Positions 43,111 to 62,498 of a stretch of 64,000 nucleotides of DNA are shown here, in pieces. Every line of letters starts with the position of its first letter. Position 1 is the first letter of the stretch. The notes beneath the pieces are model-generated. The model ran no database searches, was not told where the DNA came from, and saw only the letters and a program-made list of their open reading frames with translations. This DNA comes from Bacteroidales bacterium (GTDB lineage: Bacteria > Bacteroidota > Bacteroidia > Bacteroidales > F082), in NCBI GenBank assembly GCA_017395365.1, contig JAFPUN010000003.1:124001-188000 (forward strand), in the 5' to 3' direction. The position numbers and the translations under genes were made by a program.

Positions 43111-43170
43111 CGTTCCAGCACATGACAATTGGACTAAAAACGCCACTTCAGCGAACAACACTTCACCCCT

Positions 43171-43228: not shown

Positions 43229-43299
43229 TGGGCAGTTAACGTTAGCTCTATAGATGGCGAGAATCTTTGACCGCGACATTGCAAGAAGCCTGTCGCAGT

Positions 43300-43318
43300 T
43301 GTGACATATAGTGTCACA
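43300..43318. promoter_or_regulatory. Operator palindrome 1
   Basis: TGTGACA-TATAG-TGTCACA, perfect 7-bp arms with a 5-bp spacer, 83 bp upstream of the 75-residue ORF. Identical arms and spacing recur at 46673-46691 and 46705-46723, near the divergent WYL regulator. Confidence 0.7.
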
Positions 43319-43400
43319 AACTATTTGGCTCTTTATGTCGTGCGTATTCATTTTTCTTGTTTCTTTGCAGTTGAAAAACAATAAGTGAAAGGAAAAAATT

Positions 43401-43628: not shown

Positions 43629-43686
43629 GTAGATATCTTTGCCGTATCATTCCTCTATTAGGGTAACTATACATAAAGTAGTAATT

Positions 43687-44091: not shown

Positions 44092-44218
44092 AATATAAAA
44101 GTTCAAGTGGCTTATCGTATGGAAAAGATTATTAGTTTCGCAGCGAAAAAGAGAGCGGGTGCCGAAAAGCGAATAGAGTAGGCGATTAAACAAAGGGAAT
44201 TATTAAAACAATACTGAT
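44092..44218. other. Short gap, possible peptide remnant
   Basis: Contains only an open frame of about 18 codons beginning MEKIISFAAKKRAGAEK near 44119 and no recognisable site. I do not call a gene. Confidence 0.3.
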
Positions 44219-45583: not shown

Positions 45584-45592
45584 CCACCTTTA

Positions 45593-46489: not shown

Positions 46490-46514
46490 AGCACTTTGCG
46501 TTTTGGTGAGGATG

Positions 46515-46522
46515 CAAAAATA
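46515..46522 (-). promoter_or_regulatory. Promoter -7 box of the WYL regulator
   Basis: TATTTTTG on the minus strand, 25 bp upstream of the chosen start, fits TAnnTTTG and excludes the longer ORF start at 46540. Confidence 0.55.
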
Positions 46523-46672
46523 AGATTTTCTGTCTATCATAATGTCTTTTTGTTATGAAATCTTTTTAGTTGGAATATGGGACATAAGCGCTTCGTCGCC
46601 AGAGGCCTTAAACATATTGAAGCCGGGCAAGGGAGCACTCTATTGGGTTGTGCTGCAAAAATAAAAACGGAT

Positions 46673-46723
46673 TGTGACAAAATATGTCACAAATAAAGTT
46701 TTTTTGTGACACTATATGTCACA
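46673..46723. promoter_or_regulatory. Operator palindromes 2 and 3
   Basis: TGTGACA-AAATA-TGTCACA (46673-46691) and TGTGACA-CTATA-TGTCACA (46705-46723). Centres are 32 bp apart, close to three helical turns. They lie between the WYL gene and the 71-residue ORF, followed by TTGTTCTTTTGCGG, which resembles the leader of the 43.4-kb gene. The rest of 46541-46841 shows no gene. Confidence 0.7.
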
Positions 46724-46841
46724 TTTATGTTGTTCTTTTGCGGTCTGAAAAAATAGAAAAAATGGATGGAAAAAATTATATATTATTAAATAATATAGGT
46801 GGGACCACTATATATATCAACCAATAATAAAACAAAAGTCC

Positions 46842-47057
46842 ATGGAAGATTTCTTCATCATCTTACTCGTCATCATGTTCGTGGTTGCGTTCATCATCGC
46901 CCTTGTCGGCAGCATCCTCGAAGGCCTGTTTCAGCTGCTTTGCGGCTTGTTCCACCAGGTGTGCGGCCTCTTTGCCGGAGCGGGCATCTATGGCATCATC
47001 ACCGTTGTAGGCGTTGTCGTTTTCATCGGTGCCATCATACACATTATTAATAATTAA
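46842..47057 (+). CDS. Small membrane protein
   Basis: 71 residues, nearly all hydrophobic, with two likely membrane helices (about residues 4-27 and 49-68) joined by a cysteine-bearing LLCGLFHQVCGLFAG loop. Unknown family. It heads an apparent operon with 47114-47509 and 47605-48063 behind operators 2 and 3. Confidence 0.6.
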   Translation: MEDFFIILLVIMFVVAFIIALVGSILEGLFQLLCGLFHQVCGLFAGAGIYGIITVVGVVVFIGAIIHIINN

Positions 47058-47113
47058 CATTTCGTGTCGACAAATCACAAACAAATCCATTCATCAACAA
47101 AAACAACAACAAC

Positions 47114-47509
47114 ATGGAAACTAAAAGACTAAGCAAAACCGAGTTTGTAGAGGTGGCCAAGGCCATCGGTACCGCAACCTATCAAATTGTCAGCAATGGC
47201 AATGACTGGTTTGAACAGCTGAGCGACGGCAAGACGGTGTATCAACACAAGCTACTCACCATCAAAAGCGTGAAAAGCGACACTTTGTTCGGCGACCACC
47301 AAGAGCCTTCCCGCATTAAGGATGCAACGGGACGCACCTGCGCTTTCGTCCAAGAGAGCGGCTCGTTCGTCTACTACTGCCTGGTCCCCATCACAAAAAG
47401 GGAAAAGGCCATTGCAGAGCGGCTGGTGCGGTTGTATGCCCGATGCGTGGCATTGAAAAGAACAACCCCGTTGCCCCACCAACCGAATGAAATCGCACTG
47501 GCGGCCTAA
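47114..47509 (+). CDS. Hypothetical protein, paralogue of 43687-44091
   Basis: 131 residues, cytoplasmic by appearance. Aligns with the 43.7-kb protein from WFEQLSDGKTVYQHKL through the C-terminal helix IAERLVRLYARCVALK. The matching position behind the same type of operator supports a shared regulon. Function unknown. Confidence 0.6.
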   Translation: METKRLSKTEFVEVAKAIGTATYQIVSNGNDWFEQLSDGKTVYQHKLLTIKSVKSDTLFGDHQEPSRIKDATGRTCAFVQESGSFVYYCLVPITKREKAIAERLVRLYARCVALKRTTPLPHQPNEIALAA

Positions 47510-47518
47510 CTCTTCGCA

Positions 47519-47549
47519 CTGGTGGTCTGTCTCAATGACAGACCACCAG
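47519..47549. repeat. Perfect 13-bp hairpin
   Basis: CTGGTGGTCTGTC and GACAGACCACCAG flank TCAAT. It sits 10 bp after the 131-residue gene. No T-run follows, so it may be an RNA-processing or stabilising structure rather than a terminator. Confidence 0.6.
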
Positions 47550-47604
47550 AAGATCCAAAGCGGAAGCCGAAAAACCAACAAAATAGGTAATAAAAACAAA
47601 TCAT

Positions 47605-48063
47605 ATGAAAGACACAAACATAGTCAGAATCAAGGCATATATTGGAGGCTGCATTAACCGGCCTTATGTTTGCAATGAATTGCCAGTGTCGGGCGTACCA
47701 AGTGAATATTTTAGTGACAAAAGTGTTCGTTCGCTTGTCACGGATGAGCAATTCAACACTTTGGTTAAACTGCTTTGCCATTATGGTTACGCTACAAGCA
47801 CAATATGCCCCAATAGGATTGAAACACCATCGTTTTATCATCGGACTTGTCCATGGGATCATTCTGAGGACCATTGTTACATGGTTTTCGATATTGAAGT
47901 AGAAACACGGGTAACGGTTCACGAAACAGCAGAAGACAACGAATCGGAATACATCAAGGTGACAAAGAAGGATATGGTGCGGCTGCTGAAACAACTGAAA
48001 GACGAGGAAAACAAACACATCGAGGCGATTGAAAAGCAATTCTCGGATTACTTTGGAATCTAA
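47605..48063 (+). CDS. Hypothetical protein
   Basis: 152 residues, no signal peptide. The N-terminal half is rich in aromatic and Cys residues (GGCINRPYVCNELPVSGVPSEYFSD), and the end is a charged coiled coil (KKDMVRLLKQLKDEENKHIEAIEKQF). No family recognised. It may be the third gene of the operon starting at 46842. Confidence 0.5.
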   Translation: MKDTNIVRIKAYIGGCINRPYVCNELPVSGVPSEYFSDKSVRSLVTDEQFNTLVKLLCHYGYATSTICPNRIETPSFYHRTCPWDHSEDHCYMVFDIEVETRVTVHETAEDNESEYIKVTKKDMVRLLKQLKDEENKHIEAIEKQFSDYFGI

Positions 48064-48210
48064 TCCTGTATCTATCCACGAGGATATTGACAGCGTATCA
48101 CCTCGGCGCTTCCCCGCCATGTCGACCCTTCCTTTCCGCCCGGACCCTATCGGTCTTTGGCGAACCCAGTCGTGAGGCATTTCTGCCTATGCACTTTATT
48201 CATGCCTCTT

Positions 48211-48268
48211 GCCGTCATCGCGGTTCCGCCTCCGCGGAATGAGGCGATCCGCGATCTCCTAAACCGCA
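48211..48268 (+). repeat. Direct repeat copy B (right flank of the WYL block)
   Basis: Same orientation as copy A at 43171-43228, 51 of 58 identical. Followed directly by the ORF6N-type gene remnant. Confidence 0.8.
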
Positions 48269-48287
48269 AGAGGACTACACCTTCGGC

Positions 48288-48564
48288 ATGGCAACTGTCG
48301 CAAAATTTGCGATAGTTCAAAACGAGGGCAGCCGCACAGATATACACACGCAGCATTACCCAACAACTCGCCCTCGACCTGCAGCGCCACAACGCGCAAT
48401 ACCGTCCCATCGCCATCGATGCGTTCCAAAACACCCACGACCACTTCCTCTGCATCGACGACACAGTATATCATATCGGTGCCTCGCTGAAGGACTTGGG
48501 GAAGAAATGGTTTGCTTTTAGCAGGATGGAGATTGAGGCTGAGGCGCTTCTCAAAAAGATTTGA
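48288..48564 (+). pseudogene. Remnant of an ORF6N/RhuM-type protein C-terminus
   Basis: The frame ending at the TGA at 48562-48564 reads HDHFLCIDDTVYHIGASLKDLGKKWFAFSRM, which resembles the C-terminal signature of ORF6N-domain (KilA-N/Bro-related) proteins in Bacteroidetes. A short ATG-led frame upstream at 48288 is in a different phase, so the gene is truncated and frameshifted. No intact N-terminus is present between copy B and this fragment. Confidence 0.6.
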
Positions 48565-48581
48565 GAGGAACCGCCAAACAC

Positions 48582-48640
48582 ACTCAAATTGAGTACAGTA
48601 AAACCTTTTGCTTAATCTATTTTTGTACTCAAAATGAGTA
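48582..48640 (+). promoter_or_regulatory. Autoregulatory promoter of the XRE regulator
   Basis: Palindromes ACTCAA-A-TTGAGT (48582-48594) and TACTCA-AAA-TGAGTA (48626-48640) have centres 45 bp apart. Between them is TATTTTTG (48618-48625), a match to TAnnTTTG. The second palindrome overlaps the expected transcription start, the usual place for a repressor of its own gene. Confidence 0.7.
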
Positions 48641-48646
48641 TAAAAA

Positions 48647-48943
48647 ATGAAATCAGAAAACGTTGATTTCCAAGATCAAGTAATTCAATCGATTAAGAAG
48701 CTTCGCACGGAGAGAGGCATTAGTCAGGCGAAATTAAGCGAGATATTGGGCATCTCACGTGGGCAAATTGGAAATATCGAAAACCCAAAATATTCCCACA
48801 AATACACCCTGAAGCAGATTGATACCATCTGCAAACATTTGGATTATCCGATTGAAAAAATCTTTCTTCCAAACGTGAAGATTGCACCCGAGTGCTCTGA
48901 AGCGGTGAACGCGGTTATTAGTAGCATTATTAAATATGAGTAA
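48647..48943 (+). CDS. XRE-family HTH regulator (controller-like)
   Basis: 98 residues: HTH at about 18-72 (IKKLRTERGISQAKLSEILGISRGQIGNIENPKYSHKYTLKQIDTICKHLDYPIEKIF), C-terminal helix. Small XRE proteins at the head of restriction systems act as C-proteins timing methyltransferase and nuclease expression. Its promoter carries two palindromes, and it precedes the AIPR gene by 36 bp. Confidence 0.85.
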   Translation: MKSENVDFQDQVIQSIKKLRTERGISQAKLSEILGISRGQIGNIENPKYSHKYTLKQIDTICKHLDYPIEKIFLPNVKIAPECSEAVNAVISSIIKYE

Positions 48944-48979
48944 AAACACAAAAGTCTTATCATCATAAAAAAAGAAGCT

Positions 48980-51337
48980 ATGGCATCTACAGACGACCAA
49001 TTTGACGATTTCAAAACCCCAGGAGATTCTCCGTACGTCAACGAAACAATAGGAAAAGTTTTTGAGCAAGAGCTCACCGAAGTGGAGCAATTCAAGGACG
49101 AACTTGACGAACAGCTGATGATGGCTGACAGTCCTCAAGATGAGTTGACCGAAATGATTATCGGCTATATCCAAGGTGCTGGCGATGTAAACCAGGTAAA
49201 CATCTGTTCTTACAGAGCTAAGAATGGTGTCGGAATCGATGCATGGGGATTCAATGGTGATGAAGATTTGACAACCATCGATTTGTTCCTCACACTTTAT
49301 ATCGACCCAGAAGAAAGCCACAAAATTTCCGCCAATGACTTGGACCGTCATTTTAATTGGCTCAATCGATTCTATGATCAATCAAAAGCTGGCACCATTT
49401 TTTCAAAAATCGAAGAAGACCGTAGCGATCTGTATCAAGTCGCTCAACTTATAAAAGAGACTCCCGAGATTGACAGAATACGTCTTTTCCTACTGACCAA
49501 TGCCATAATGCCATCCAGTTATGACAAACCTAACACGGAATTGGAATCTGGTACCAGCTGTGAGTTTTATGTATGGGACGCAAAGCGGATAATGCAACAA
49601 GACCACATAATCTCGGGTAAAAAACCTATTGTTGTTGATTTTGAAGGTGACTACAACTGCACATTGCCATGCATAAAAATGCCTGATGTATCCGATAATG
49701 TTTCTTGCTATTTGTGCATAATCCCAGGAATGGTATTATCCCAGGTCTATCACAAATACCATCAACAAATACTGGAAATGAATGTACGCACATTCCTCCA
49801 GTTCAAAGGCACTTCAAACAAAGGCATACGTGACACCCTCATTGGGCATAAGGCTACACCCGCCGAACGACGCAAAGGCATTGAGGACTCAACCGCCGAA
49901 CCTGATATGTTTTTTGCCTACAACAATGGTATTTCTGCCACAGCTTCCGAAATAAAGCTGAATGAGGAAGGCAATGCCATTACCCGCATCAAATCGTGGC
50001 AAATCGTGAATGGTGGTCAGACAACTGCTGCCATCCACGCAGTCATGAGCATGAAAGATGTGGATTATTCAGAGCTGACAAAAGTGTATGTCGCCATGAA
50101 GATTTCTGTCATCAAAGACAAAGATAATCTTCCCCATATCGTTCCAAGAATATCAAGATTTGCCAACACACAGTCTGCGGTAAAGAAGTCAGATTTTAAT
50201 ATCAACGAACAATTCCTGGTAGAGTTGGAGCAACGTTCCCGCGAAGAATGGGTTATCAATTCCGCAGGCAAGCCTGTCTCCAAATGGTTCTTCGAGCGCA
50301 CTCGTGGTCAGTATCTCGACAAGGCCAAACGTGGGGGTGGCCCAAGAGCTGAAAAAGAGTTCTATGCTGAATATCCTAAGGATCAGATGTTCGACAAGAC
50401 GATGCTTTCAAAGTTCATGATGGCTTGGGACCAAAATCCCGCCAGCGTATGTAAGGGTGGCGAGAACAACTATGGCGTATTTTTCAACCGAATGAAGCAA
50501 CAGGCTATTCGTTTCGATGCCACTCGCTATCACCGTACAGTCGCAAAGGCTATCCTGTTCAAGGCCATTGACGCCTTCTACGGTAAGGATGGACTGGCAT
50601 TGCCTGGATATAAGTCGAACATGGTGGCTTACACAATGTCGATGCTTTCACTCCTATCCAACAAGGCCCTCAACCTTGATACCATTTGGAAAGAACAATG
50701 TGTCATCTCGCCATCTGTCTATAACGAAATGACTATCGATATTTACAGTGTTTATGCCAAGTTAATCACTGGTGCCGAGCATGTCACCTACAAGGTTAAG
50801 GAAAGCTACACTACAACTGATGGCAAACGTAGAAACCGCTTTGTACCCAAGAGTATTCCTGATGAAGACATCAATCTCATCAAGGGAACGATGCTCTATC
50901 AAGTGTTGCAATACGTAAAACTGATAGAACCTGTAGTATATAAGCACATCTTTGAAGTCAATGAAGGTGAGAATATCAACGAGTGGACTAAAAAGACCAC
51001 TTGTTGGGATTCTTTGAAAGTCAAAGCCTCCAATCTGGAAGCCAAATACATTATCCCACAGAATCTCTGTTCAGCCTCTGGTGACATGGACATTGAGGTA
51101 ACCGAAGGCCAGCAGAAGTTCATCGACGAAGCTTCAGAGATTGACCCTTCCATTTGGTTTAGTATCAACAAGTGGTCGAAAGATAATCCTGGCAAACTAA
51201 CGCCAAAGGAACAAGCTTTTGTTGGTCAAGTGGGATTCAATTTGAAACGCAACAGGCCATTGACCTACAAACAGGCCAAGTGGGCATTGGATATTTATGA
51301 CAAAGCCATGGAGTCTGGCTGGGAACATGATGAATGA
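48980..51337 (+). CDS. AIPR-family protein (abortive phage infection related)
   Basis: 785 residues. AIPR-domain hallmarks are in the middle: VRTFLQFKGTSNKGIRDTL near residue 270, FFAYNNGISATASEI near 312, and WQIVNGGQTTAAIHAV near 341, then a SRFANTQSAVKKSDFNINEQFLVELE block near 393. AIPR proteins are found in abortive-infection and restriction-modification islands, with unproven biochemistry. The end overlaps the helicase start in ATGATGAATGA, indicating translational coupling. Cytoplasmic. Confidence 0.88.
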   Translation: MASTDDQFDDFKTPGDSPYVNETIGKVFEQELTEVEQFKDELDEQLMMADSPQDELTEMIIGYIQGAGDVNQVNICSYRAKNGVGIDAWGFNGDEDLTTIDLFLTLYIDPEESHKISANDLDRHFNWLNRFYDQSKAGTIFSKIEEDRSDLYQVAQLIKETPEIDRIRLFLLTNAIMPSSYDKPNTELESGTSCEFYVWDAKRIMQQDHIISGKKPIVVDFEGDYNCTLPCIKMPDVSDNVSCYLCIIPGMVLSQVYHKYHQQILEMNVRTFLQFKGTSNKGIRDTLIGHKATPAERRKGIEDSTAEPDMFFAYNNGISATASEIKLNEEGNAITRIKSWQIVNGGQTTAAIHAVMSMKDVDYSELTKVYVAMKISVIKDKDNLPHIVPRISRFANTQSAVKKSDFNINEQFLVELEQRSREEWVINSAGKPVSKWFFERTRGQYLDKAKRGGGPRAEKEFYAEYPKDQMFDKTMLSKFMMAWDQNPASVCKGGENNYGVFFNRMKQQAIRFDATRYHRTVAKAILFKAIDAFYGKDGLALPGYKSNMVAYTMSMLSLLSNKALNLDTIWKEQCVISPSVYNEMTIDIYSVYAKLITGAEHVTYKVKESYTTTDGKRRNRFVPKSIPDEDINLIKGTMLYQVLQYVKLIEPVVYKHIFEVNEGENINEWTKKTTCWDSLKVKASNLEAKYIIPQNLCSASGDMDIEVTEGQQKFIDEASEIDPSIWFSINKWSKDNPGKLTPKEQAFVGQVGFNLKRNRPLTYKQAKWALDIYDKAMESGWEHDE

Positions 51338-53000
51338 AGACCTGATGCGCGAGTCATACCTGGACGAGGAAGTTGATGTGGTTCAACCCTTTGAAGGTCC
51401 AGCAATTCGCTTCTCACACATAGAGGCGAACAATGATGGTTTGCGCAAATATCAGGCCGATATGAAGAAGCAAATCTATGACCTTTGGGATAAGATAGAC
51501 AATGTGATGCTCCAGATGCCTACAGGTACGGGGAAGACCATCGTCTTTACATCCATTGTCCGCGACATCCTTAAGTGGTGCCAAAACTTCAGCAAAGAAT
51601 CGAAGATACTGATCGTTGCACATCGCAAGGAACTGATTGAACAAGCTAGCAACAAACTGGGAAAACTGCCACACGGCATCATACAAAGCGGCAAGCCACA
51701 GCAGCTGTCTTTACCTGTTCAAGTGGCTTCCATCCAAACTTTTATGAGTCGAAGAAACTATGAGACCATGCGCCGACAACGATTTGACTTCATCATCATA
51801 GATGAAGCACATCACTCATTGGCTCCTGGCTACCAAAAACTATGGGACATGTTCCCCAACAGTAAGAAATTGGGAGTAACAGCAACCCCATGGCGAATGT
51901 CTCATTCGGGATTCACTTCACTTTTCGGCGACATTGTTCTCTCTCGCAGTATCGAATGGTTCGTCAATAATGGCTATTTGTCGAACTACGACTATATCTC
52001 TATCAATCGTGATTCGGAGTTGCAGCATGAGATCAATTCCATTGAACGCTATGGAGCCGATGGTGACTACCTTGAGGCAGAACTGAGCAACCTGTTCGAC
52101 AAAGACAAGATTCGCGCCGAGCTATATAAGAGTTACAAACAATTTGCCAAAGGCAAAAAAGGCATTGTCTATGCCATCGATCGTAGACATGCCGCCAACA
52201 TCACAGAGTTGTATTCCGTAAATGGCGTTAAAGCCTGCATGATTGATGGCACAACGCCTGCCGATGAGCGTAAAGATTTGATAAACGCTTTTAAAGCTGG
52301 CAGTATTGAAGTGATTGTTAATGTGAACATCTTCTCCGAAGGCTTCGACTGTCCTGACATCGAGTTCGTTCAGTTGGCCCGTCCCACCAAGTCATTGGCA
52401 CTATACCTACAACAAATAGGTCGCGCGCTACGTGTTTCGGATAACAAGACAAGTTCCATTATTCTTGACAATGTAGGACTCTACAACCGCTTTGGCACTC
52501 CTATGGCCAATCGCCGTTGGCGTTATCATTTCATTGGACACGATGAAGGCGAGGGCTATAATGATGGTACAAGTATTACTCGTGACATTGTCTTTGAACC
52601 ACAAGAACGTGAGCCTGATTATAGCGAAGGCAACGAAAAAATGGTTGTTGTAGAACACACTTCTGGAGGCAAACAGATACGCACAGAGGATGCTAATGAT
52701 GCCGTCGCCTTAGGCGAATACAACATTTTCAGAAAAAACGGCCTTTATGGCGTGTGTGACCACAACAATCGCACAATAATACCACCCATTTATGAGGATA
52801 TGCATCCCTATTGCAACGGCTATATCCCGTTCAAATTGAATGGCAAATGGGGCATTATGCTTAAGAATGGCACCGTGAAAGTCAGACCAAAATACTTCTA
52901 CATCGGCCCCTTCATTGAAGGTGTAGCAGAAGTGCAAAACAGAGAAAACGACCCCGTTTATTACATTAACGATAGGCTAGAAAGAATAGATGAAAGATAA
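51327..53000 (+). CDS. DEAD/DEAH-box SF2 helicase with C-terminal WG-type repeats
   Basis: 557 residues. RecA-like domain 1 has Walker A MPTGTGKT (K70) and DEAH 159-162; domain 2 has SEGFDCPDIEFVQLARPTKSLALYLQQIGRALR (motifs V-VI). The last 90 residues (LYGVCDHNNRTIIPPIYEDM, GKWGIMLKNGTVKVRPKYFYIGPF) are WG beta repeats, unusual on a helicase. It overlaps the AIPR gene by 11 bp and the first methyltransferase by 11 bp. Start at 51327 or 51330. Confidence 0.88.
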   Translation: MMNEDLMRESYLDEEVDVVQPFEGPAIRFSHIEANNDGLRKYQADMKKQIYDLWDKIDNVMLQMPTGTGKTIVFTSIVRDILKWCQNFSKESKILIVAHRKELIEQASNKLGKLPHGIIQSGKPQQLSLPVQVASIQTFMSRRNYETMRRQRFDFIIIDEAHHSLAPGYQKLWDMFPNSKKLGVTATPWRMSHSGFTSLFGDIVLSRSIEWFVNNGYLSNYDYISINRDSELQHEINSIERYGADGDYLEAELSNLFDKDKIRAELYKSYKQFAKGKKGIVYAIDRRHAANITELYSVNGVKACMIDGTTPADERKDLINAFKAGSIEVIVNVNIFSEGFDCPDIEFVQLARPTKSLALYLQQIGRALRVSDNKTSSIILDNVGLYNRFGTPMANRRWRYHFIGHDEGEGYNDGTSITRDIVFEPQEREPDYSEGNEKMVVVEHTSGGKQIRTEDANDAVALGEYNIFRKNGLYGVCDHNNRTIIPPIYEDMHPYCNGYIPFKLNGKWGIMLKNGTVKVRPKYFYIGPFIEGVAEVQNRENDPVYYINDRLERIDER

Positions 53001-54126
53001 GAAGTTATATAAAATGGCAGACCTTTTTGCAGGTTGTGGTGGACTAAGCTTGGGCTTGGAACAAGCTGGTTTCGTCCCATGGTTTGTAAATGAGATTGTG
53101 CCGACTTTTTGTGAAACTTACAAGAAAAATCACGTCCTTTCAGATGATCACTACTATATAGGCGACATCAATGACCTTAACAAACATCTTGACAATTATC
53201 ATGATTACATAGATAATTTGTATTTGGTTTGTGGAGGTCCTCCTTGCCAGGGCTTCTCAATGGCTAACAGACAAAGATTGATTGACGATCCAAGAAACCA
53301 GCTTTACAAGGCATATCTTTATTTTCTCAGCGTGACAAGACCAAGGTTTTTTATTATGGAGAATGTTCGTGGAATGGCAAACAAAATCGAAGAGATCAAA
53401 GAAAACTTTAAGGAGTATTTAGGAGAGGAGTATGTTTTTGGTTATCGTCTTCTATATGCTCAAGATTTCGGAGTTCCACAAAACAGAGAACGTTTCATTT
53501 TCATTGGCAATCGCGAAGGCATTTCTATTGACGTTATTTTTGATGCTATTGAAAAACATAAAAGGAAGCCTTTTGTTTTACGTGATGCTCTTGTGGGGCT
53601 ACCGCCTCTAGAAGCGAAAAAAGAAAAGGGCAAAACAGATATTGAAAATGAAAAATCCGGTTTTACAGAGAGAGATTTCGTTTATACAGAGAACGCTTTT
53701 TATCGGTTCATCAACGGCAAACGAAAAATAACTAAATTGTACAATCACAAAAATCGGTACAATAACCCTCGTGATATTGAAATTTTTAGCAGATTACCTC
53801 AAGGAGCAAATTCTTTGCATGAATCAATAGCAGATATAATGCCTTACAAAAGGAGAAATGCTATTTTTAAAGATAAGTATTTTAGATTGGCTGATGATCA
53901 AATCTGCAAAACTATTACCTCACATATGAAGTTTGATTGCAATATGTATATCCACCCTTGGGAAGCAAGAGGTCTAAGTCCAAGAGAGGCAGCACGTATT
54001 CAAACGTTCCCAGACGATTATGTTCTTTATGGAGCACAAAACGCTTGGTATGCACAAGTTGGTAACGCTGTTCCAGTTAAGTTGGCTAAAGCAATTGGGG
54101 AAGGTATAATGCAGTTTATAAAATGA
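52990..54126 (+). CDS. DNA cytosine-5 methyltransferase 1
   Basis: 378 residues. Motif I FAGCGGLSLG (near 13), motif IV GGPPCQGFS with catalytic C86, motif VI ENV (E124), motif VIII QNRERF (near 164-169) and motif IX/X at the end (QVGNAVPVKLAKAIGEG). AT-rich relative to the core genome. Paired with the next gene with a 4-bp overlap. In LlaJI-type systems each of two such enzymes methylates one strand of an asymmetric site; that is an inference here. Confidence 0.95.
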   Translation: MKDKKLYKMADLFAGCGGLSLGLEQAGFVPWFVNEIVPTFCETYKKNHVLSDDHYYIGDINDLNKHLDNYHDYIDNLYLVCGGPPCQGFSMANRQRLIDDPRNQLYKAYLYFLSVTRPRFFIMENVRGMANKIEEIKENFKEYLGEEYVFGYRLLYAQDFGVPQNRERFIFIGNREGISIDVIFDAIEKHKRKPFVLRDALVGLPPLEAKKEKGKTDIENEKSGFTERDFVYTENAFYRFINGKRKITKLYNHKNRYNNPRDIEIFSRLPQGANSLHESIADIMPYKRRNAIFKDKYFRLADDQICKTITSHMKFDCNMYIHPWEARGLSPREAARIQTFPDDYVLYGAQNAWYAQVGNAVPVKLAKAIGEGIMQFIK

Positions 54127-55190
54127 GACACTTAGAATTGTTTGCAGGCGTTGGCGGTTTTAGAGCCGCAATGGATCACATCCATCAAGATTTGGACGTG
54201 ATTATCGACACTATTGGCTTTTCTGAAATTGACGCTAAAGCGTTGGCAACTTACAAAGCCAATTTTAATACCACCAATGAGATAGAAATGGGTGACATTG
54301 TCTCATTCATTAAGGACAAAAAGAGATTTAGAACACTTCCTCGATTTAATCTCCTTTCTGCAGGATTTCCTTGTCAAACATTCAGTATGATGGGGAAGCA
54401 AGCTGGTTTTGATGAAGATAGAGGGCAAATGTTTTTTAGGATAATGGATCTTGTACATAAATATCAACCGAACTTTATCCTTTTGGAGAATGTTAAGAAC
54501 TTGATGAATCATGACAAGAAAAGGACGTACAAAAGAATAAAGGAAGAATTAGAGGCTGAGAAATATATAGTTCATGAAGACGTATTTAATACAAATGCTT
54601 TTGGATTGCCTCAAAAAAGGAACAGGGTTCTAGTTTTTGCCAGAAAAGCTAAATATGGTGACTTCATTTTTTCTTTTGATGCTGTCAAAAAACATTTTGA
54701 AGTATTAAACCATAACGATATAAGCATTTACTTATATAGAAGCGTAGTGGACATCCTATCGCAAGAAGTTGAGGGGAAATACTATTTGTCCAGTAAAATT
54801 AAGCCCACTATTTTAAGTAATGGAAGTGGCAGTTTTGTGTCCAACTCAGACATTGACCAGTTGGTGGCAAGACCTTTGACAGCGTCCATGCATAAAATGC
54901 ACAGAGCTTGTCAAGATAATTATTATAGCGACATCTTTATTCAGTCATATGGTGCGGTTCGTCCTTCAGAATATATGACCAAAGAAGAGTTAGCTTCAAT
55001 TCCTATTCGTAAATTAACACCACAAGAGGCATTTATGTTACAAGGTTTCCCTCGTGATTTTGCCTTAAATGCTCAGCGAGAAGGAGTATCAAATGGTTCT
55101 TTATATACTCAAGCCGGCAATGCTGTAAGTGTAAACACCATCTATGCCGTTCTTCATTATCTAATTCACTCTAAAATCATGTTTGAATAA
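54123..55190 (+). CDS. DNA cytosine-5 methyltransferase 2
   Basis: 355 residues. Motif I ELFAGVGGFRAA (near 5), motif IV GFPCQTFS with catalytic C84, ENV at E122-N123-V124, QKRNRV motif VIII, and TQAGNAVSVNTIYAV motif X. Diverged from methyltransferase 1 in the target-recognition region (about residues 190-270), so it probably has a different recognition or strand preference. It ends 1 bp before the next ATG. Confidence 0.95.
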   Translation: MRHLELFAGVGGFRAAMDHIHQDLDVIIDTIGFSEIDAKALATYKANFNTTNEIEMGDIVSFIKDKKRFRTLPRFNLLSAGFPCQTFSMMGKQAGFDEDRGQMFFRIMDLVHKYQPNFILLENVKNLMNHDKKRTYKRIKEELEAEKYIVHEDVFNTNAFGLPQKRNRVLVFARKAKYGDFIFSFDAVKKHFEVLNHNDISIYLYRSVVDILSQEVEGKYYLSSKIKPTILSNGSGSFVSNSDIDQLVARPLTASMHKMHRACQDNYYSDIFIQSYGAVRPSEYMTKEELASIPIRKLTPQEAFMLQGFPRDFALNAQREGVSNGSLYTQAGNAVSVNTIYAVLHYLIHSKIMFE

Positions 55191-55191
55191 A

Positions 55192-55683
55192 ATGAAGAAA
55201 ATCAAATATATAAAGAGACAAGATTCACATTGGAAACAAGCATGTGGCTATTCTGGTGAGACAAGTCTAAATCTTTCAAATGAGTTAATGGATTTCCTTA
55301 CTAATGGGATGGTCTCTCCTGGAGAACACTGTGGCATAACTTTTTCAATATATAAAATAGAATTTGAACGAGCGTTGGACTTTATCGAATCACAACTCCC
55401 TTTATTTGTATCTACATCCAAGACCTGTGATTTAGTACATAAAGGAGACGAAGTTCTAACCAAGCTAAGACAAAACATTAGTTCCATATTTGGAAACAGC
55501 GAAAGAATATATTATACGGTAAACTTGTTTTATAGATCTGATGGACGGATATATCTTAATGGTCTGAGACAAAATGGATTCTCTATTCGCGATTATCTGG
55601 TCGAGAATAGCTCGGCAATAGAATTTATCATCAGTGAGGGAGAGTTTTCTTTGCATCTTTTATCTTCAATAAGCGAAATGTAA
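55192..55683 (+). CDS. Stand-alone copy of the McrB-like N-terminal domain
   Basis: 163 residues. It aligns end to end with residues 1-165 of the next gene: YIKRQD, SGE.S.NLSNEL, PGE, LP(L)(F/Y).S.S, FGN, DGR.YL.GL..NGFSIR.YLVE. No other domain is present. In LlaJI-type R1 proteins the N-terminal domain is a B3-like site-specific DNA-binding domain; I infer the same role but could not verify it. The ATG at 55192 is chosen over the upstream TTG. Confidence 0.72.
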   Translation: MKKIKYIKRQDSHWKQACGYSGETSLNLSNELMDFLTNGMVSPGEHCGITFSIYKIEFERALDFIESQLPLFVSTSKTCDLVHKGDEVLTKLRQNISSIFGNSERIYYTVNLFYRSDGRIYLNGLRQNGFSIRDYLVENSSAIEFIISEGEFSLHLLSSISEM

Positions 55684-55700
55684 CGATTAAATTCAATAAA

Positions 55701-58274
55701 ATGGCAATAACGAAATACATAAAAAGGCAAGACTGCGGATTTAAACTTTCACCTGGTAATTCGGGAGAGTCGAGCATTAATCTATCGAACGAATTATTTG
55801 ATTTAATTTGTCCGGAGTCATTGAATCCTGGTGAAGAAAAGAAAGTCACCTTCAAAATCTTCAAAGACGATTATATTAAAGCTATATGCTTCATTATATC
55901 AAAATTACCGCTGTATAGGAGTTCTTCGAATTCTAGTACAAAAATAGATTATGATTATGCGGTTTTTAAAGAACTTCAAGATAATGTTGAGTCTTTATTT
56001 GGTAATAATAAAGAAGCAGATTACACATGCACTCTACTTCATAGATACGATGGAAGAAAATACCTTAAAGGATTAAATACAAATGGTTTCTCTATTAGGA
56101 ACTATCTTGTAGAGGATTTAAGCGCATTAGTATTTGAAAATATAGGAGAGATTAAATCAATTAGGCTTTTATCAAATGTTACGGAAGATATGGAAACAAA
56201 TACAACCATGGTAGAAGATAAACTTATTCTCAGCGAAACGACTATGACACAGTTCGTCTTTAATTGTGTTTCATATTTTAGCGAGAAAGCCATTTGGAGC
56301 AATATTGACAAATATGTTGCAAATGCAAATGATATAAAAGATGGCGATAATATAAAAGTTAGTAAAAAAGGCCTGTTTTCATTAGTCGGAATGTTTAAAT
56401 GCACTTCAGAGGAAAACATAATAAACTACAACACACCGCGAAGAAGATGGTTTAGTGAACCGTTTACAGTTGTTGGTAATACCGTCTTTTTAAGCACAGA
56501 ATGGTATCCTGGCCCCAAGGAGGATGGAAGTCCCTATGGATTAATGCTACCTGATTTTGCCAAATTTATACCAACGTGTTTTGGTGATGAGTATCGATGT
56601 GTCAACAATGATGGAACTTGGGAACTTTGGCAAAAGGCAGTCCCTCATCAGCAACTAAATGAAAACATTGATAATACTAATCCCCGTGTATGGATTTACG
56701 CTCCTGGTGAGCAGGCCAGCCTTTGGGAAGAATGCCAACAACAAAGCATGATGCGACTTGGCTGGGATGAGCTTGGTGATTTTAGCCAGTTTGATTCTCG
56801 TCAGGCAGTGATAGCCAAAATGAAAGAGATTTATGACGCTGATAACAATAGCAATGACACGCTGGCCGTTTGGCAGTTCTTAAATGATATGCAGATTGGT
56901 GACATTGTCTATGCCAAGAGAGGTACGTATCACATCATTGGAAGAGGCGTGGTAGAAGGCGAATATGTTTTTGATGACAGTTTGGAAGAATTTAAACATA
57001 CCAGGCGTGTCAAATGGACCGAAGTCGGCGACTGGGAGGCTCCCTACAATCTTCCTCGCAAAACATTGACCCGCCTATACGCAGATGACCCCAACATCCA
57101 ATTGTTAGACCAAACCATTTCTGGAAAACTTAAAACAGAGATTCCTGTAGAACCTTTCTCCATCAAGAGAATCATTGGATACATCCAAGAAACCGGTTTG
57201 CTTTACGCCGACAACCTGATTAAGCGTTTCGCTTTCTCACTGATGTCTAAACGTTTCTTGATTTTAAGCGGCTTGGCAGGTTCTGGAAAAACACAATTGG
57301 CTTTGGCGTTTGCCAGCGCCATGGTTAAGAACAAGGACGAACAGATGTGCGTGGTGAGCGTAGGCGCCGACTGGACAAACCGCGAGCCTCTGCTGGGATT
57401 CCCCAACGCACTTCAACAAGGGAAATATGTTAAGCCCGAAAGCGGTGCGCTTGATCTGCTGATTGAAGCCAATCGGCCGGAGAACGCCAACAAGCCCTTC
57501 TTTTTGATTTTGGACGAAATGAACATGAGCTATGTGGAACGCTATTTTGCCGATTTCCTGTCGGCCATGGAAAGCAAGGAAGCAATCTCGTTATGGAATA
57601 CCAATGGAGTGGAAAACTCAGAAGAAGTTGATGGCGTACCACAAAAAGTGGCTCTGCCCAAGAACCTGTTCATCATTGGCACCATCAACGTGGATGAAAC
57701 CACCTACATGTTCTCGCCCAAGGTGCTCGACCGCGCAAACGTGATAGAGTTCAAGATTTCAGAAGCAGAAATGGCTGGATTCTTGGCCAATATAAGAGAG
57801 GTAAACCGTGATAGCATCGTTGGCAAAGCAGCGGGCATGGGTGCCAGTTTCGTGGAAATAGCCTGCCAAAAAGAACTGGCAGAAGACAAAAAAGCCGTGA
57901 ATACGCTAAATAATTTCTTTAAGGAACTGAAAGGCGTGAACGCAGAATTCGGCTATCGCTCAGCTACGGAAATATTCCGCTTTATCTGCCAGGCCAAAGC
58001 TCATGACGACACAGAACAAAAACTGTCAGATAATGAGATACTGGATGCCGCTATCGTGCAAAAGCTGCTACCCAAGCTACACGGCTCGCGCAAAAAGCTG
58101 GAGCCAGTTTTACAACAGCTGTGGAAGCTTTGCTTCACTCCAGAAAAGCGGGATACAACGGCTTTGGACATTTCAAATGTCAACAATGCCGTCTACAAAG
58201 AGAGTGCCGACAAGATACGTCGAATGTACGAGTCGGCATATGCAAATGGATTTACTAGTTTTGCGGAAGCATAA
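55701..58274 (+). CDS. McrB-like AAA+ restriction subunit with N-terminal DNA-binding-like and EVE-like domains
   Basis: 857 residues. About 1-165: domain shared with the preceding solo gene. About 325-450: EVE/PUA-like region (RVWIYAPGEQASLWEECQQQSMMRLGWDELGD, MQIGDIVYAKRGTYHIIGRGVV), read as a modified-base or nucleic-acid sensor in related proteins. About 500-730: McrB-type AAA+ motor with Walker A GLAGSGKT (K530), Walker B ILDEMN (D605-E606) with the McrB-like ERYFADFLSAME, and a GTINVDE sensor near 659. McrB motors use GTP or ATP; not decidable here. Confidence 0.87.
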   Translation: MAITKYIKRQDCGFKLSPGNSGESSINLSNELFDLICPESLNPGEEKKVTFKIFKDDYIKAICFIISKLPLYRSSSNSSTKIDYDYAVFKELQDNVESLFGNNKEADYTCTLLHRYDGRKYLKGLNTNGFSIRNYLVEDLSALVFENIGEIKSIRLLSNVTEDMETNTTMVEDKLILSETTMTQFVFNCVSYFSEKAIWSNIDKYVANANDIKDGDNIKVSKKGLFSLVGMFKCTSEENIINYNTPRRRWFSEPFTVVGNTVFLSTEWYPGPKEDGSPYGLMLPDFAKFIPTCFGDEYRCVNNDGTWELWQKAVPHQQLNENIDNTNPRVWIYAPGEQASLWEECQQQSMMRLGWDELGDFSQFDSRQAVIAKMKEIYDADNNSNDTLAVWQFLNDMQIGDIVYAKRGTYHIIGRGVVEGEYVFDDSLEEFKHTRRVKWTEVGDWEAPYNLPRKTLTRLYADDPNIQLLDQTISGKLKTEIPVEPFSIKRIIGYIQETGLLYADNLIKRFAFSLMSKRFLILSGLAGSGKTQLALAFASAMVKNKDEQMCVVSVGADWTNREPLLGFPNALQQGKYVKPESGALDLLIEANRPENANKPFFLILDEMNMSYVERYFADFLSAMESKEAISLWNTNGVENSEEVDGVPQKVALPKNLFIIGTINVDETTYMFSPKVLDRANVIEFKISEAEMAGFLANIREVNRDSIVGKAAGMGASFVEIACQKELAEDKKAVNTLNNFFKELKGVNAEFGYRSATEIFRFICQAKAHDDTEQKLSDNEILDAAIVQKLLPKLHGSRKKLEPVLQQLWKLCFTPEKRDTTALDISNVNNAVYKESADKIRRMYESAYANGFTSFAEA

Positions 58275-58314
58275 AACAAAACGAAAATCTAATAATTTCA
58301 AACAAGAAAGTGAT

Positions 58315-59979
58315 ATGACAACAGACATGCAGCATATCCAACTGCTGAGGAAACAGATTCTGGAGATAGGCAAAGAGGTAAGGTTTCTTGAGTTTAAAAG
58401 CAACTATCAAGATGCTGAAAGGCTAGGAAAGTATGTCTCAGCGTTGTCAAACGGTGCTTGTCTTGACAACAAAGAGAAAGGATATTTATATTTCGGAGTG
58501 GAAGACGAAACATTGGAACTCATAGGGACAACTTTCGACGCTTCGAAAATTAAGGCGAAGGGGAATCAAAACCTCGAAATCTACCTCCGCCAATACATCA
58601 CCCCAAAAATCAACTTCAAAATCGAGGATTTTCACGATATTGATGGAAAGCGTTTTGTAGTTTTCATTATTCCTGCGGCCAAAGAGGAGCCGACTTGTTT
58701 CATGAACATTCCGTATGTCAGAGTGGACAGTTCAATAACCGACCTCCGCCCCTATACGGATTGGATGCGCACCATTTACAACTCTCATAAAGACTGGAGT
58801 GCAGAAATCGTTAACAATGCCACCATCAATGACCTTGACCCAAATGCAATTGCCAAAGCATTTGAGGGCTATTGCCAACGTTTCCCCGAAAAAGCAGAAG
58901 AAGCCGCCAAGTGGGACACGACAACATTTCTTGATAAGGCTAAAGTAACAATTGATGGACAAATCACCCGTACAGCTCTTTTGCTGTTAGGCAAGGAAGA
59001 ATCAGCCCATCGACTGAACTACATCTCTCAGATTGTTTGGAGATTACGGACAGAGAAAGAAGACGCTGGAGATATCTTTACCACACCCTATTTGTTGTCA
59101 ACATCACATCTGATGAGCAAAATTAGGAACTATCGCATGAAGATATTCCCCAACAACAGCTTGATTCCCGCAGAAGTATGGAAATATGACACCAAATCCA
59201 TCCTTGAAGCCCTCCATAATTGCATAGCTCATCAAGACTACAGAAGAAACGAAAGGATTGTAGTGACGGAAGAGCAAGAATGTCTTGTTTTTGAAAATGC
59301 AGGTTCGTTCTACGAAGGTTCATTTGAGGATTACATTGAGGGGAAGAAAACACCCAAGAAATATCGCAACCATTTCCTTACCCAAGCCATGGTGAACCTT
59401 AAGATGATAGATACCCAAGGATTCGGCATCCATGACATGTTTCAACGCCAAAAAGAGCGTTTCTTACCCATGCCAGACTATGACAAATGCGACCCGGAAC
59501 GGGTAAAACTTATTATACCCGGCCAGGTCATCAATGAAGAATATTCGCTTCTGCTGATGGAAAAGACAGATTTGGATCTGATGACAACAGTTTTGCTTGA
59601 CCGATTCCAAAAGGGCAAACCTATAAGCAAAGAGGCATTGAATATGTTGCGGAAGATGAAACTAATTGAAGGGAAAAAGCCCAACCTTTACATTAGTAAG
59701 AGTGTGGCAAAAGCCACTCATCAAGAGGCAGAATACACAGCCATGAAAGGTTTTGATGACCAATACTACCGAGACCTGATTGTGAAGGCTCTAAAAGATC
59801 ACACTTCATTAAGGAGAAAAGATTTTAACACATTGCTTTTAAACAAGTTACCCGATATTTTAAAAGAGAATCAAAAGAAAAACAAAATTGATAATCTTTT
59901 GAGAGTGTTACGGGAAAACGGTACCATCTATGTAGACAAAAATCGGGTTTGGCATCTTGCAGAAGGTAAAGACACATGA
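58315..59979 (+). CDS. Schlafen/AlbA_2 ATP-binding-type protein
   Basis: 554 residues starting MTTDMQHIQLL. AlbA_2 (Schlafen core-like) domain at about 14-150 with VRFLEFKSNY, KGYLYFGVED and IDGKRFVVFIIPAA, then the usual YDTKSILEALHNCIAHQDYRRNERIVV region (ATP-binding C-terminal domain) and a winged-helix end (SLRRKDFNTLLLNKLPDI, NGTIYVDKNRVWHLA). Such proteins occur in defence islands and as regulators. It sits between the McrB- and McrC-like genes, 40 bp after the former. The open frame upstream to 58003 is out of phase with McrB and rejected. Confidence 0.87.
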   Translation: MTTDMQHIQLLRKQILEIGKEVRFLEFKSNYQDAERLGKYVSALSNGACLDNKEKGYLYFGVEDETLELIGTTFDASKIKAKGNQNLEIYLRQYITPKINFKIEDFHDIDGKRFVVFIIPAAKEEPTCFMNIPYVRVDSSITDLRPYTDWMRTIYNSHKDWSAEIVNNATINDLDPNAIAKAFEGYCQRFPEKAEEAAKWDTTTFLDKAKVTIDGQITRTALLLLGKEESAHRLNYISQIVWRLRTEKEDAGDIFTTPYLLSTSHLMSKIRNYRMKIFPNNSLIPAEVWKYDTKSILEALHNCIAHQDYRRNERIVVTEEQECLVFENAGSFYEGSFEDYIEGKKTPKKYRNHFLTQAMVNLKMIDTQGFGIHDMFQRQKERFLPMPDYDKCDPERVKLIIPGQVINEEYSLLLMEKTDLDLMTTVLLDRFQKGKPISKEALNMLRKMKLIEGKKPNLYISKSVAKATHQEAEYTAMKGFDDQYYRDLIVKALKDHTSLRRKDFNTLLLNKLPDILKENQKKNKIDNLLRVLRENGTIYVDKNRVWHLAEGKDT

Positions 59980-59985
59980 AATTCT

Positions 59986-60040
59986 ACGCGAAAATTACGC
60001 GAAAATTACGCGAAAATTACGCGAAAATTACGCGAAAATG
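59986..60040 (+). repeat. Five 11-bp tandem repeats
   Basis: Unit ACGCGAAAATT repeated exactly five times, the last ending in ATG instead of ATT. Begins 7 bp after the AlbA_2 stop and lies about 110 bp before the McrC-like gene. The rest of 60041-60149 is AT-rich with no site I recognise. Confidence 0.9.
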
Positions 60041-60149
60041 ATTTGTAAAATATTATAAATCAATAAAATTGATGATTTTACATTTCCGAAAGATTCCGTG
60101 AAATTTCCGTGAAACGATAGAAAAGAGCAACAAATTGATACAAGATAAT

Positions 60150-62498
60150 ATGGCCGAATATCTCGAAATACCAATCATAGGAAAAGCCAGCAACGTAAAA
60201 TTGGTGGTATATCCGCAATCTTCAAAGGCGAAGGTCTTTAAAGAGGACAAGCCGTATGCAGGTGAATCGAGATATCAATTGGTGGAAGGATGCACATACA
60301 CATACGAGTTTGTGGGCGAATCGAGTAGCCATCGTTGCCAGTTTGAGAGAGAGAATGAAATTGTACAGTTTCATCGCAATACGACAAGTCATGCTTGTGA
60401 AGGTACGCTGACAACGGGCATCTATGTTGGCCACTTGACGCTGAATGTGGTGGATGTGGATACTAAGGAACAAGTGGGGCATGTAAGCATGGAAATAAGG
60501 AGCATTAAGTCGGACTACCATCACGACTACCGACTGATGCTAGATGAAATAGCAGAATACTACACCGACCTGGTGCTGCAGCAGGGCTCGCCTGTAACGC
60601 AGCAACTAGAGATTGACCAAAACTGCTCATCGCAGACACTATACCAGCGGTTCTCTTTCGTTCGTTCGCTGATTGACAGCGAGGCGTTTTCAGAAGCAAT
60701 CCACAAAATCATCTCCAATCCGGTGAGAAAATGGACGGATGCCAACATTGAAAGAAACATCGTTGGAGTAAGGCGGTTATCGCGCAACAATATCCGACAG
60801 ATTGCATCTGGAACCGACAGGATCCATCTCCCTGCTGGATTAAGGTCGGGATTGCCTGACTCCTTGACGAGCGTACCTCGAAACATAGATGTTGAATATA
60901 AACGTGACACAACTGATAACCAAGAAAACCAGTTCGTAAAATTCGTGTTACGCTCATTCGTTAACTTCTGCTCTGACATCAAAGGCTTTACCAATGCCAA
61001 TGAACAACTAAAAGCGGAGGCAGACCAAACTTTGGAACAATTATATGGTTACCTTGACAACCAGTTTTTCCGTCAAATCTCACTTCCCACACATTTAAAC
61101 ATGAACAGTCCTGTGCTGCAACGCAAAGAGGGCTATCGTGAAATATTGCAAGCTTGGCTGCTTTTCGACTTGGCAGCGAGGTTGAACTGGACAGGTGGGG
61201 ATGATGTATACGACGCTGGCAAGAAGAATGTAGCGACGCTATACGAATATTGGCTATTCTTCAAGTTACTGGAGTTGGTAAGCGAATTCTTCCACATCGA
61301 GCCACAAGCCAAGAGTGAGTTGGTGCAGATGGATAATGATGGCATCAACCTAAGCCTTAAGCAGGGCAAGATGAGGATGGTGAGTGGGCGACAGGAAACC
61401 TTCTCGCGCATGCTGAATGTGGCATTCTATTACAACCGTTCCTTCAACAAGGTGGCCAAAGAAAAAGATCCAATTCATTCTGCCGGTAGTTGGACTATGA
61501 CCATGCGGCCCGACTATACGTTGTCATTATGGCCGGGTGAGATAACAGAGCAAGAGGCCGAGCGACAGGCATTGGTCACCCACATACACTTCGATGCAAA
61601 ATACCGTTTAGATAGGGTGCTACTTGAAGACAAAGACGCGGGTCTGGATATTGACAAAGAACTGGCCGAGGAGAAACAAGAACAAGAAATGAAAATATAC
61701 AAACGTGGTGACTTGTTGAAAATGCACGCCTACAAAGATGCTATCCGCAGGACAAGTGGCGCTTATGTACTTTATCCTGGCGAAAAAAACAAGGAATTGC
61801 GTGGTTTTCATGAAATCGTACCTGGCCTAGGTGCATTCAGCATTAGACCTGGTCATTGGAAGGAGGACTCCATCTATCTGAAGCAGTTCCTTGCTGAAGT
61901 GAAGGCACACTTGCTTGACCGCACGTCTGACCGTGAAAAACTGTCGTATTATGAGTATGATATTCATCTCAAACCCAACAAAACTATGATGATGGAAAGC
62001 TTGCCAGAAGCCGAAGGTGAAAACCGTGATTTTCTTCCTGATGAAACATCGGTTATCATCGCCCCATACCGCGACCAAAGACATTTGGATTGGATATTGA
62101 ATAACCATTTTTACAATATGCGCGCTGGGGATGCCAATGGTTCGGTTCAACTTAATAATGATGTGATAAATGCAAGATATGTATTGCTTCACGATGGCAA
62201 GCATTCCAATAGATTAATTAGAATCGTTAAAGGAGGACCTAAAGTATATACAAGAACTCAATTGCTCTTAATGGGTTATCCTCAATACTTGAAAAAAGAC
62301 GGCACTATTGATACCGAAAAAGAACAAAATGAAGCCGACAGAATTTATCTTGTTTTCGAATTGTTTAAAAATAACAATGTAGAAAAAGAACTACAAGAAT
62401 ACGCTTGGGACATGAATAGAGTATTGCCAAGTCAAAAAATGAAAAGCTTACCTTATGCTGAAAAGTTAGTAAAACTAATCAAACTAAGTCGCTCTTAA
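60150..62498 (+). CDS. DUF2357-type McrC-like nuclease (PD-(D/E)XK)
   Basis: 782 residues starting MAEYLEIPIIGKAS. N-terminal beta-rich region, then DUF2357 helical core (YHHDYRLMLDEIAEYYTDLV near 130). C-terminal nuclease with D455 in MRPDYTLSLWPG and D482-A-K484 in HIHFDAKYRLDR, a textbook D...(D/E)xK catalytic pair, then LLKMHAYKDAIRRTSGAYVLYPG. It would be the DNA-cleaving partner of the McrB-like motor. Stop codon TAA is followed without gap by the YqaE gene, which marks the end of the island. Confidence 0.87.
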   Translation: MAEYLEIPIIGKASNVKLVVYPQSSKAKVFKEDKPYAGESRYQLVEGCTYTYEFVGESSSHRCQFERENEIVQFHRNTTSHACEGTLTTGIYVGHLTLNVVDVDTKEQVGHVSMEIRSIKSDYHHDYRLMLDEIAEYYTDLVLQQGSPVTQQLEIDQNCSSQTLYQRFSFVRSLIDSEAFSEAIHKIISNPVRKWTDANIERNIVGVRRLSRNNIRQIASGTDRIHLPAGLRSGLPDSLTSVPRNIDVEYKRDTTDNQENQFVKFVLRSFVNFCSDIKGFTNANEQLKAEADQTLEQLYGYLDNQFFRQISLPTHLNMNSPVLQRKEGYREILQAWLLFDLAARLNWTGGDDVYDAGKKNVATLYEYWLFFKLLELVSEFFHIEPQAKSELVQMDNDGINLSLKQGKMRMVSGRQETFSRMLNVAFYYNRSFNKVAKEKDPIHSAGSWTMTMRPDYTLSLWPGEITEQEAERQALVTHIHFDAKYRLDRVLLEDKDAGLDIDKELAEEKQEQEMKIYKRGDLLKMHAYKDAIRRTSGAYVLYPGEKNKELRGFHEIVPGLGAFSIRPGHWKEDSIYLKQFLAEVKAHLLDRTSDREKLSYYEYDIHLKPNKTMMMESLPEAEGENRDFLPDETSVIIAPYRDQRHLDWILNNHFYNMRAGDANGSVQLNNDVINARYVLLHDGKHSNRLIRIVKGGPKVYTRTQLLLMGYPQYLKKDGTIDTEKEQNEADRIYLVFELFKNNNVEKELQEYAWDMNRVLPSQKMKSLPYAEKLVKLIKLSRS

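Follow-up and report, generated by a model that had tools for sequence, protein, structure and literature searches.

LlaJI restriction-modification (R-M) systems, known from Lactococcus plasmid pNP40 (PMC1459862), comprise two adjacent 5-methylcytosine (m5C) methyltransferases, B3-type recognition, a McrB-like motor and a PD-(D/E)xK nuclease. R1.LlaJI is the specificity subunit (PMC1459862), and the LlaJI system of H. pylori binds DNA through a B3 domain (PMC7680126). In McrBC systems, McrB translocates in a GTP-driven manner and McrC cleaves (PMC11090510, PMC7680126). A branch with an NxD GTPase motif and an association with methyltransferases was described by Bell et al., and none of its members had been characterised by 2024 (PMC11090510). 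Here, a 64,000-nt stretch of Bacteroidales bacterium contig JAFPUN010000003.1 (positions 124,001 to 188,000; hereafter the window) was analysed, in which an operon of nine genes combines parts related to both LlaJI and NxD McrBC with an AIPR protein and a DEAH helicase. The contig is 418 kb long and belongs to a 2.1-Mb genome that is 72.6% complete.

Judged from gene content and homology, the operon probably encodes an R-M system on a McrBC-type motor, with two methyltransferases (M1 and M2), guided by a small free-standing B3-like protein (the solo), and with AIPR and the helicase as a second arm. M1 and M2 would mark host sites with m5C, while the solo and the B3-like domain fused to McrB would recognise those sites wherever the mark is absent. 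Translocation by the NxD McrB motor and cutting by the McrC nuclease would follow, and the conserved AIPR–helicase pair would form the operon's second effector arm. Under this model the operon would restrict unmodified DNA and both arms would serve one target. The operon would consist of three recombining blocks: AIPR–helicase, a specificity cassette, and motor–nuclease.

The new point suggested by these comparisons is a specificity cassette that appears exchangeable between conserved effectors. Three related loci, L032, L033 and L034, share DNA homology with the window from 48969–48992 to exactly 52990, the start codon of M1, and again from 56672–56679, at about codon 325 of McrB. Between these two points no DNA match was present in any of the three loci, and the flanking segments are 69–88% identical. 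L034 comes from the cultured Xylanibacter ruminicola Ga6B6. At the protein level the window and L032 are 89% identical in AIPR, 92% in the helicase, 79% in the EVE-like domain of McrB, 90% in the AAA domain and 84% in McrC; within the cassette the methyltransferases are 22 and 28% identical and neither the solo nor the McrB N-terminus gave a match. L037 has a more diverged frame (AIPR 67%, helicase 76%, EVE-like domain 48%, AAA 72%, McrC 68%) and a related cassette (methyltransferases 75 and 63%, solo 55%). L045 likewise combines related methyltransferases (76 and 64%) and solo (55%) with a more diverged frame. In trees of AIPR plus helicase and of AAA plus McrC the window groups with L032 (support 100 in both), and in the cassette tree it falls on the L037/L045 side (support 100). 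L032 and L135 have a common cassette (methyltransferase 55%, solo 65%, McrB N-terminus 54%), with no detectable similarity between their motors and only a 32-residue match between their nucleases. Given that L032, L033 and L034 all hold the same cassette, their three sharp borders may represent one event.

Both M1 and M2 carry a PCQ catalytic motif and are 71.5% and 51% identical, respectively, to an adjacent methyltransferase pair on plasmid pTS1 of Treponema saccharophilum (L176), their best plasmid relatives. In pTS1 this pair is followed by R1 and a RE_LlaJI nuclease, forming a four-gene LlaJI operon. A profile built from window-type solos and McrB N-termini matched the N-terminus of pTS1 R1 (72 bits, 1.7e-23). 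By this homology M1, M2 and the solo are the predicted specificity half of a LlaJI system. The two adjacent LlaJI-type methyltransferases and, from the profile match together with the fold match of the solo described below, the B3 recognition domain of R1 are present. The restriction half differs: the PF09563 RE_LlaJI nuclease, for which pTS1 R2 scores 146 bits, is lacking, and the motor motif GTINVDE is of the NxD form, compared with NxxD (NTSD) in pTS1 R1. LlaJI consists of four genes with an NxxD motor and a PF09563 nuclease, as tested on pTS1 and taken from description for the Lactococcus system, whereas the window has a B3 protein on its own in addition to the B3 domain fused to McrB, an NxD motor, a DUF2357 McrC, an EVE-like domain, AIPR and the helicase. 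The window system probably works like LlaJI with a LlaJI-derived cassette, yet is no LlaJI member by nuclease family and GTPase motif. A reading of the locus made from the sequence alone (the sequence-only reading) had proposed a LlaJI-type system; this proposal stands for the methylation and recognition half and fails for the restriction half. The two enzymes may, as the sequence-only reading suggested, mark one asymmetric site; two relatives, L135 and L050, have a single methyltransferase, although the L050 contig begins just before this gene.

The motor and nuclease are, by family assignment, not LlaJI subunits. McrB contains the motifs GLAGSGKT and INVDE, and McrC contains PD...DAK and matched only PF09823 and PF04411 in Pfam at E 0.01. 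The NxD motif was found in the window and in 30 of the 32 relatives examined (L048, with a split frame, was excluded from this count); the remaining two, L135 and L136, are NxxD (NTSD), as are R1 of pTS1 and R1 of Pedobacter. With its NxD motif and its McrC of DUF2357 plus PD-(D/E)xK, the window system is a member of the NxD McrBC branch by both features tested. It further resembles that branch in carrying methyltransferases in the operon (PMC11090510). The branch paper itself defers the methyltransferase association to a later publication, and the term AIPR is absent from its main text (PMC11090510). The EVE-like domain was retained across the cassette swap and, because it stays with the motor, is probably not the part that sets the sequence target. 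It was not detected in L045, and a PDB profile search with the domain gave no match. A single phage match to McrC was found, at 22% identity.

The solo is a protein of 163 aa (166 aa from the TTG start) that is 46% identical to the McrB N-terminus. In the fold search with its model, all 14 of the 14 best VIA rows were B3 domains; Foldseek alone gave no significant match with the same model, and Pfam, PADLOC, NCBIfam and PDB sequences gave no useful match. A window-type solo was not found in plasmids or in 235 Prevotella-group genomes, in a search that held no known positive, and no stand-alone parent of the window solo was found beyond R1 of the pTS1 LlaJI operon. For the L032-type solo a match was found to an HNH Type II-like enzyme, in its N-terminal half; this enzyme adjoins a homologous m5C methyltransferase in 14 of 398 Prevotella-group genomes (L162–L175). 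By homology, the L032-type solo is the putative recognition half of this stand-alone HNH Type II enzyme. Within the two-gene HNH system, the enzyme is split in two frames in L174 and the methyltransferase is split in L173. A profile–profile comparison of the two solo families was not significant (probability 0.3%), and we make no claim that they descend from a common ancestor. The strands and helices predicted for the two follow a similar order, with a poor model for the second family (pLDDT, the predicted local confidence score, 45.9), and the fold search with that second model returned nothing significant.

Sequence comparison recognises no B3 domain other than the solo in L037, and it detects no relation between the solo and the McrB N-terminus in L032-type cassettes. 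For both reasons the solo may be the main recognition subunit, with the McrB N-terminus as a mount or second reader. One or other solo family is present in seven of the eight readable AIPR–helicase loci versus one of 26 other scanned loci from the McrB query, several of which are cut by contig ends. Despite this, the solo was rejected as a part of the AIPR–helicase module: a close AIPR is missing from all 14 genomes that encode the full-length HNH form (12 are without an AIPR match at 1e-100, and G728 and G729 carry one of 43–45% identity elsewhere), and the solo therefore belongs to the specificity cassette. A separate arrangement was observed in L050 (360–7050), where a methyltransferase, a full-length HNH enzyme, a separate 128-aa L032-type McrB N-terminus, an NxD McrB and McrC stand in a row. 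With its two nucleases, this locus looks like an intermediate of capture.

Relatives were sought with two queries, McrB and AIPR. The McrB query yielded 17 loci on one-genome-per-species contigs and, order-wide at E 1e-10, matches in 31 of 393 genomes including that of the window; neighbourhoods were covered for all 17 loci and 14 of the 30 others, 31 loci in total. The order AIPR, helicase, two methyltransferases, McrB and McrC was found in five of these 31 (L032, L033, L034, L037 and L045). The AIPR query, made independently of McrB in 398 Prevotella-group genomes, gave 12 genomes with E <1e-100, comprising three already-known loci, three new loci at 52–74% identity (L134, L135 and L136) and six at 42–45%. 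Nine loci, the window included, hold a close AIPR, defined as at least 51% identical to that of the window; six of the nine were recovered by AIPR without McrB, three of them new. The helicase directly follows AIPR in all nine. L134 stops after the helicase at the contig end and is unreadable further on; each of the eight others goes on with a single m5C methyltransferase or a pair, then a McrB-type motor and a nuclease-like protein, with all modules in one co-directional run. A window-type helicase was seen in none of the 29 scored AIPR loci below 47% identity, several of which are cut by contig ends. Many of these are methyltransferase–AIPR operons of other kinds, and many consist of a methyltransferase, proteins of about 490, 930 and 330 aa, and AIPR, without the window helicase, a layout that we take to be MZA-like. 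As judged by these neighbourhoods, AIPR and the helicase are a conserved part of the operon.

The helicase keeps Walker A, DEAH and motif VI; the RadD model scores it at 146 bits, below the cut-off of 720. In viral contigs no AIPR match was found, and the helicase has two relatives of 49–51% identity inside larger proteins. A domain about 50% identical to the helicase also forms part of a 1266-aa protein that occurs in an IMG/VR viral contig (L120) and in a Xylanibacter ruminicola genome (L143) with the same gene layout. Plasmids searched for AIPR, McrB and McrC held distant relatives only, all below 60%. The L135 and L136 nucleases have no useful Pfam match and were identified through their homology (207 and 245 bits) with a Pedobacter plasmid protein that follows the motor in a LlaJI-like operon and itself lacks a Pfam match. 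L136 (3144–16864, minus strand) encodes AIPR–helicase, two methyltransferases, a 246-aa protein, an NxxD AAA protein, a RhuM protein between motor and nuclease, the nuclease-like protein and a 656-aa protein.

The sequence-only reading had grouped AIPR, the helicase and the AlbA_2 protein as additions to a LlaJI core and had called for a search for the same gene order in other genomes. The AIPR–helicase–methyltransferase run does recur, and the AIPR–helicase part of the claim is borne out by its conservation in nine of nine loci; AlbA_2 proved to be an accessory only. AlbA_2 stands between McrB and McrC in three of the six NxD-type AIPR loci (the window, L032 and L037) and is missing at that place in L033, L034 and L045, which rules it out as a core component. 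Contents of the accessory slot vary: in L034 a 166-aa protein (11690–12190) separates McrB from McrC, and in L033 McrC is followed by a 556-aa protein (13702–15372); neither has a Pfam match.

The locus could instead comprise two adjacent systems that share a promoter, namely a LlaJI-like R-M system and an independent AIPR–helicase defence pair without a common target. AIPR–helicase does sit on two kinds of motor–nuclease (that of L135 and L136 and that of the rest) and on three kinds of cassette, and AIPR elsewhere has other partners. We nevertheless regard this as rather unlikely, because all nine close AIPRs keep the helicase, all eight readable loci continue to methyltransferase and motor, the genes for the helicase and first methyltransferase overlap or lie at most 4 bp apart, and the window helicase is absent from the 29 more distant AIPR loci, allowing for those cut by contig ends. 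That the parts belong to independent units holds weakly: the modules are separately exchangeable, yet they form one co-directional run in all eight readable loci. The free solo might also be a regulator-like B3 protein, such as an operon repressor, in place of a restriction subunit. A free DNA-binding protein could repress, and LlaJI is said to use its own recognition sites to control its transcription (PMC11779793, citing O'Driscoll 2005), but this role is improbable given that the solo of the other cassette matches a restriction enzyme in its recognition half, that the solo travels with the methyltransferases and that in L037 it is the sole B3 domain recognised by sequence.

Least in keeping with the data is a plain Type IV (McrBC) system lying beside unrelated methyltransferases, with the EVE-like domain as reader of modified DNA. 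The motor and nuclease are of McrBC type, the EVE-like domain survived the swap, and EVE–McrB fusions are common in predicted modification-dependent restriction (PMC7641849). Such a system is very improbable here: the McrB N-terminus is exchanged as a block together with methyltransferases and solo, no EVE-like domain was detected in L045, a true LlaJI operon has a homologous cassette, and the B3-like domain with linked methyltransferases argues against recognition of modified DNA by the McrB N-terminus. A methyl-dependent nuclease would, moreover, presumably meet the host's own m5C marks. The sequence-only reading had used this last argument against Type IV, and it is strengthened by the recognition parts changing together with the methyltransferases. 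The R-M system with a solo-guided McrBC-type motor and an AIPR–helicase arm is thus retained as the preferred reading. Whether it extends further is more doubtful, but the operon may represent a general platform, in which a cassette captured from a stand-alone R-M system (methyltransferase plus the recognition half of the restriction enzyme) sits between AIPR–helicase and McrBC-type effectors and one recognition subunit directs both. If so, exchanging the cassette would give the entire system a new target, in the way that HsdS does in Type I systems.

Other described systems share single features with the window. MZA and other AIPR–methyltransferase operons have AIPR beside an m5C methyltransferase; the window AIPR scores 284 bits, below the MzaE cut-off of 1050. 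CoCoNuT systems carry a long coiled coil fused to McrB; in the window the N-terminus of McrB is B3-like, judged by homology to the solo. CglI and NgoAVII have a B3 domain, to which the nuclease is fused, and are not known to contain McrBC or AIPR. Like the window, these R-M systems unite a methyltransferase, a site-specific nuclease and a helicase-like ATPase of the DEAD family (PMC4267653). Operons that join AIPR to R-M genes have been published before (PMC3506569; PMC5608340, Pin25611FIII). LlaI and BsuMI have three restriction ORFs (open reading frames) and pair a short McrB-like motor with an extra ORF (LlaIB, 337 aa; BsuMIB, 343 aa; PMC1459862); set beside the window by description, this extra ORF may by analogy be a recognition part. 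No description of AIPR, helicase, methyltransferase and McrBC together was found among the literature matches listed.

The cassette offers a concrete route from a McrBC-type motor to an R-M enzyme, with ordinary R-M recognition parts captured together with their methyltransferase and mounted on the motor. Its replacement as a block suggests how such systems change target. The natural chimeras (L032, L135, L037, L045 and the window) could allow exchange of target and effector in the laboratory, which is relevant for the NxD GTPases, a group with no characterised member as of 2024 (PMC11090510). For AIPR, a defence protein whose action is uncertain, the operon supplies a constant partner and a system in which its place can be tested.

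Table 1. Position, strand and supporting evidence of the operon and its parts, in window coordinates.
Feature	Position	Strand	Evidence
Whole block, gained or lost as one unit	48532..62498	+	G201 synteny stops 48531, restarts 62498
XRE-family (HTH_19/HTH_3) regulator, 98 aa	48647..48943	+	Pfam
AIPR protein (AIPR_N + AIPR), 785 aa; head module gene 1	48980..51337	+	PF10592 241 bits, PF22879 96 bits
DEAH (RadD-like) SF2 (superfamily 2) helicase, C-terminal WG repeats; head module gene 2	51330..53000	+	ResIII, Helicase_C, WG_beta_rep
m5C methyltransferase M1 (LlaJI-type); specificity cassette	52990..54126	+	PF00145
m5C methyltransferase M2 (LlaJI-type); specificity cassette	54123..55190	+	PF00145
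Solo B3-like DNA-binding protein; specificity cassette	55192..55683 (ORF from TTG 55183)	+	homology, model, profile
McrB-like AAA+ protein	55701..58274	+	homology, GTPase motif
McrB: B3-like domain	55701-56195	+	
McrB: unknown domain	56196-56654	+	
McrB: EVE-like domain, tentative	56655-57125	+	
McrB: NxD AAA+ GTPase	57126-58274	+	
Putative exchangeable specificity cassette (M1, M2, solo, McrB N-terminus)	52990..56675	+	DNA alignments, identity table, trees
AlbA_2 + HATPase_c_4 protein; accessory	about 58315..59979	+	PF04326, PF13749
McrC-like nuclease (DUF2357 + PDDEXK_7)	about 60150..62498	+	PF09823 124 bits, PF04411 96 bits

The operon is real, intact and conserved. Its genes occupy 48647–62498 on the plus strand, and all those named by the sequence-only reading were present, intact and co-directional by Pfam, ORFs and catalytic motifs, although the ten components it had counted are nine genes. 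The tight packing it described holds for the overlaps of AIPR/helicase (8 bp), helicase/M1 (11 bp) and M1/M2 (4 bp), but not for the gaps of about 40 bp between McrB and AlbA_2 and about 170 bp between AlbA_2 and McrC; gaps of 36 and 17 bp separate XRE from AIPR and the solo from McrB. The helicase ORF spans 51297–53000, and its likely start was set from homologues. The XRE gene is optional in relatives, with an HTH_3 ORF 5' of AIPR in L037, a look-alike ORF (by eye) in L045 and no phmmer match to the window protein in L032–L034. The ratio of nonsynonymous to synonymous substitution (dN/dS) between window and L032 is 0.04 for the helicase, 0.07 for AAA and 0.14 for McrC; dS was saturated for AIPR and all cassette genes, which therefore have no ratio.

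The same-genus genome G201 matches the window piecewise at 22826–43109, in a 98-bp piece at 48434–48531, and from 62498 to the window end. Given the synteny breaks at 48531 and 62498, the nine genes behave as one block. In their place G201 holds 4.26 kb with another AIPR, an m5C methyltransferase and a 221-aa protein without a Pfam match. The site to the left of the PAP2/M15 gene (62664 onwards) is a possible defence hotspot from the two genomes compared; in G101, G286 and G349, partial PAP2/M15 matches were found in two of the three. A second stretch without a G201 counterpart, 43110–48433 (about 1.0 kb in G201), encodes a 454-aa protein without a Pfam match (44219–45583) and a WYL-domain regulator (45593–46540, minus strand).

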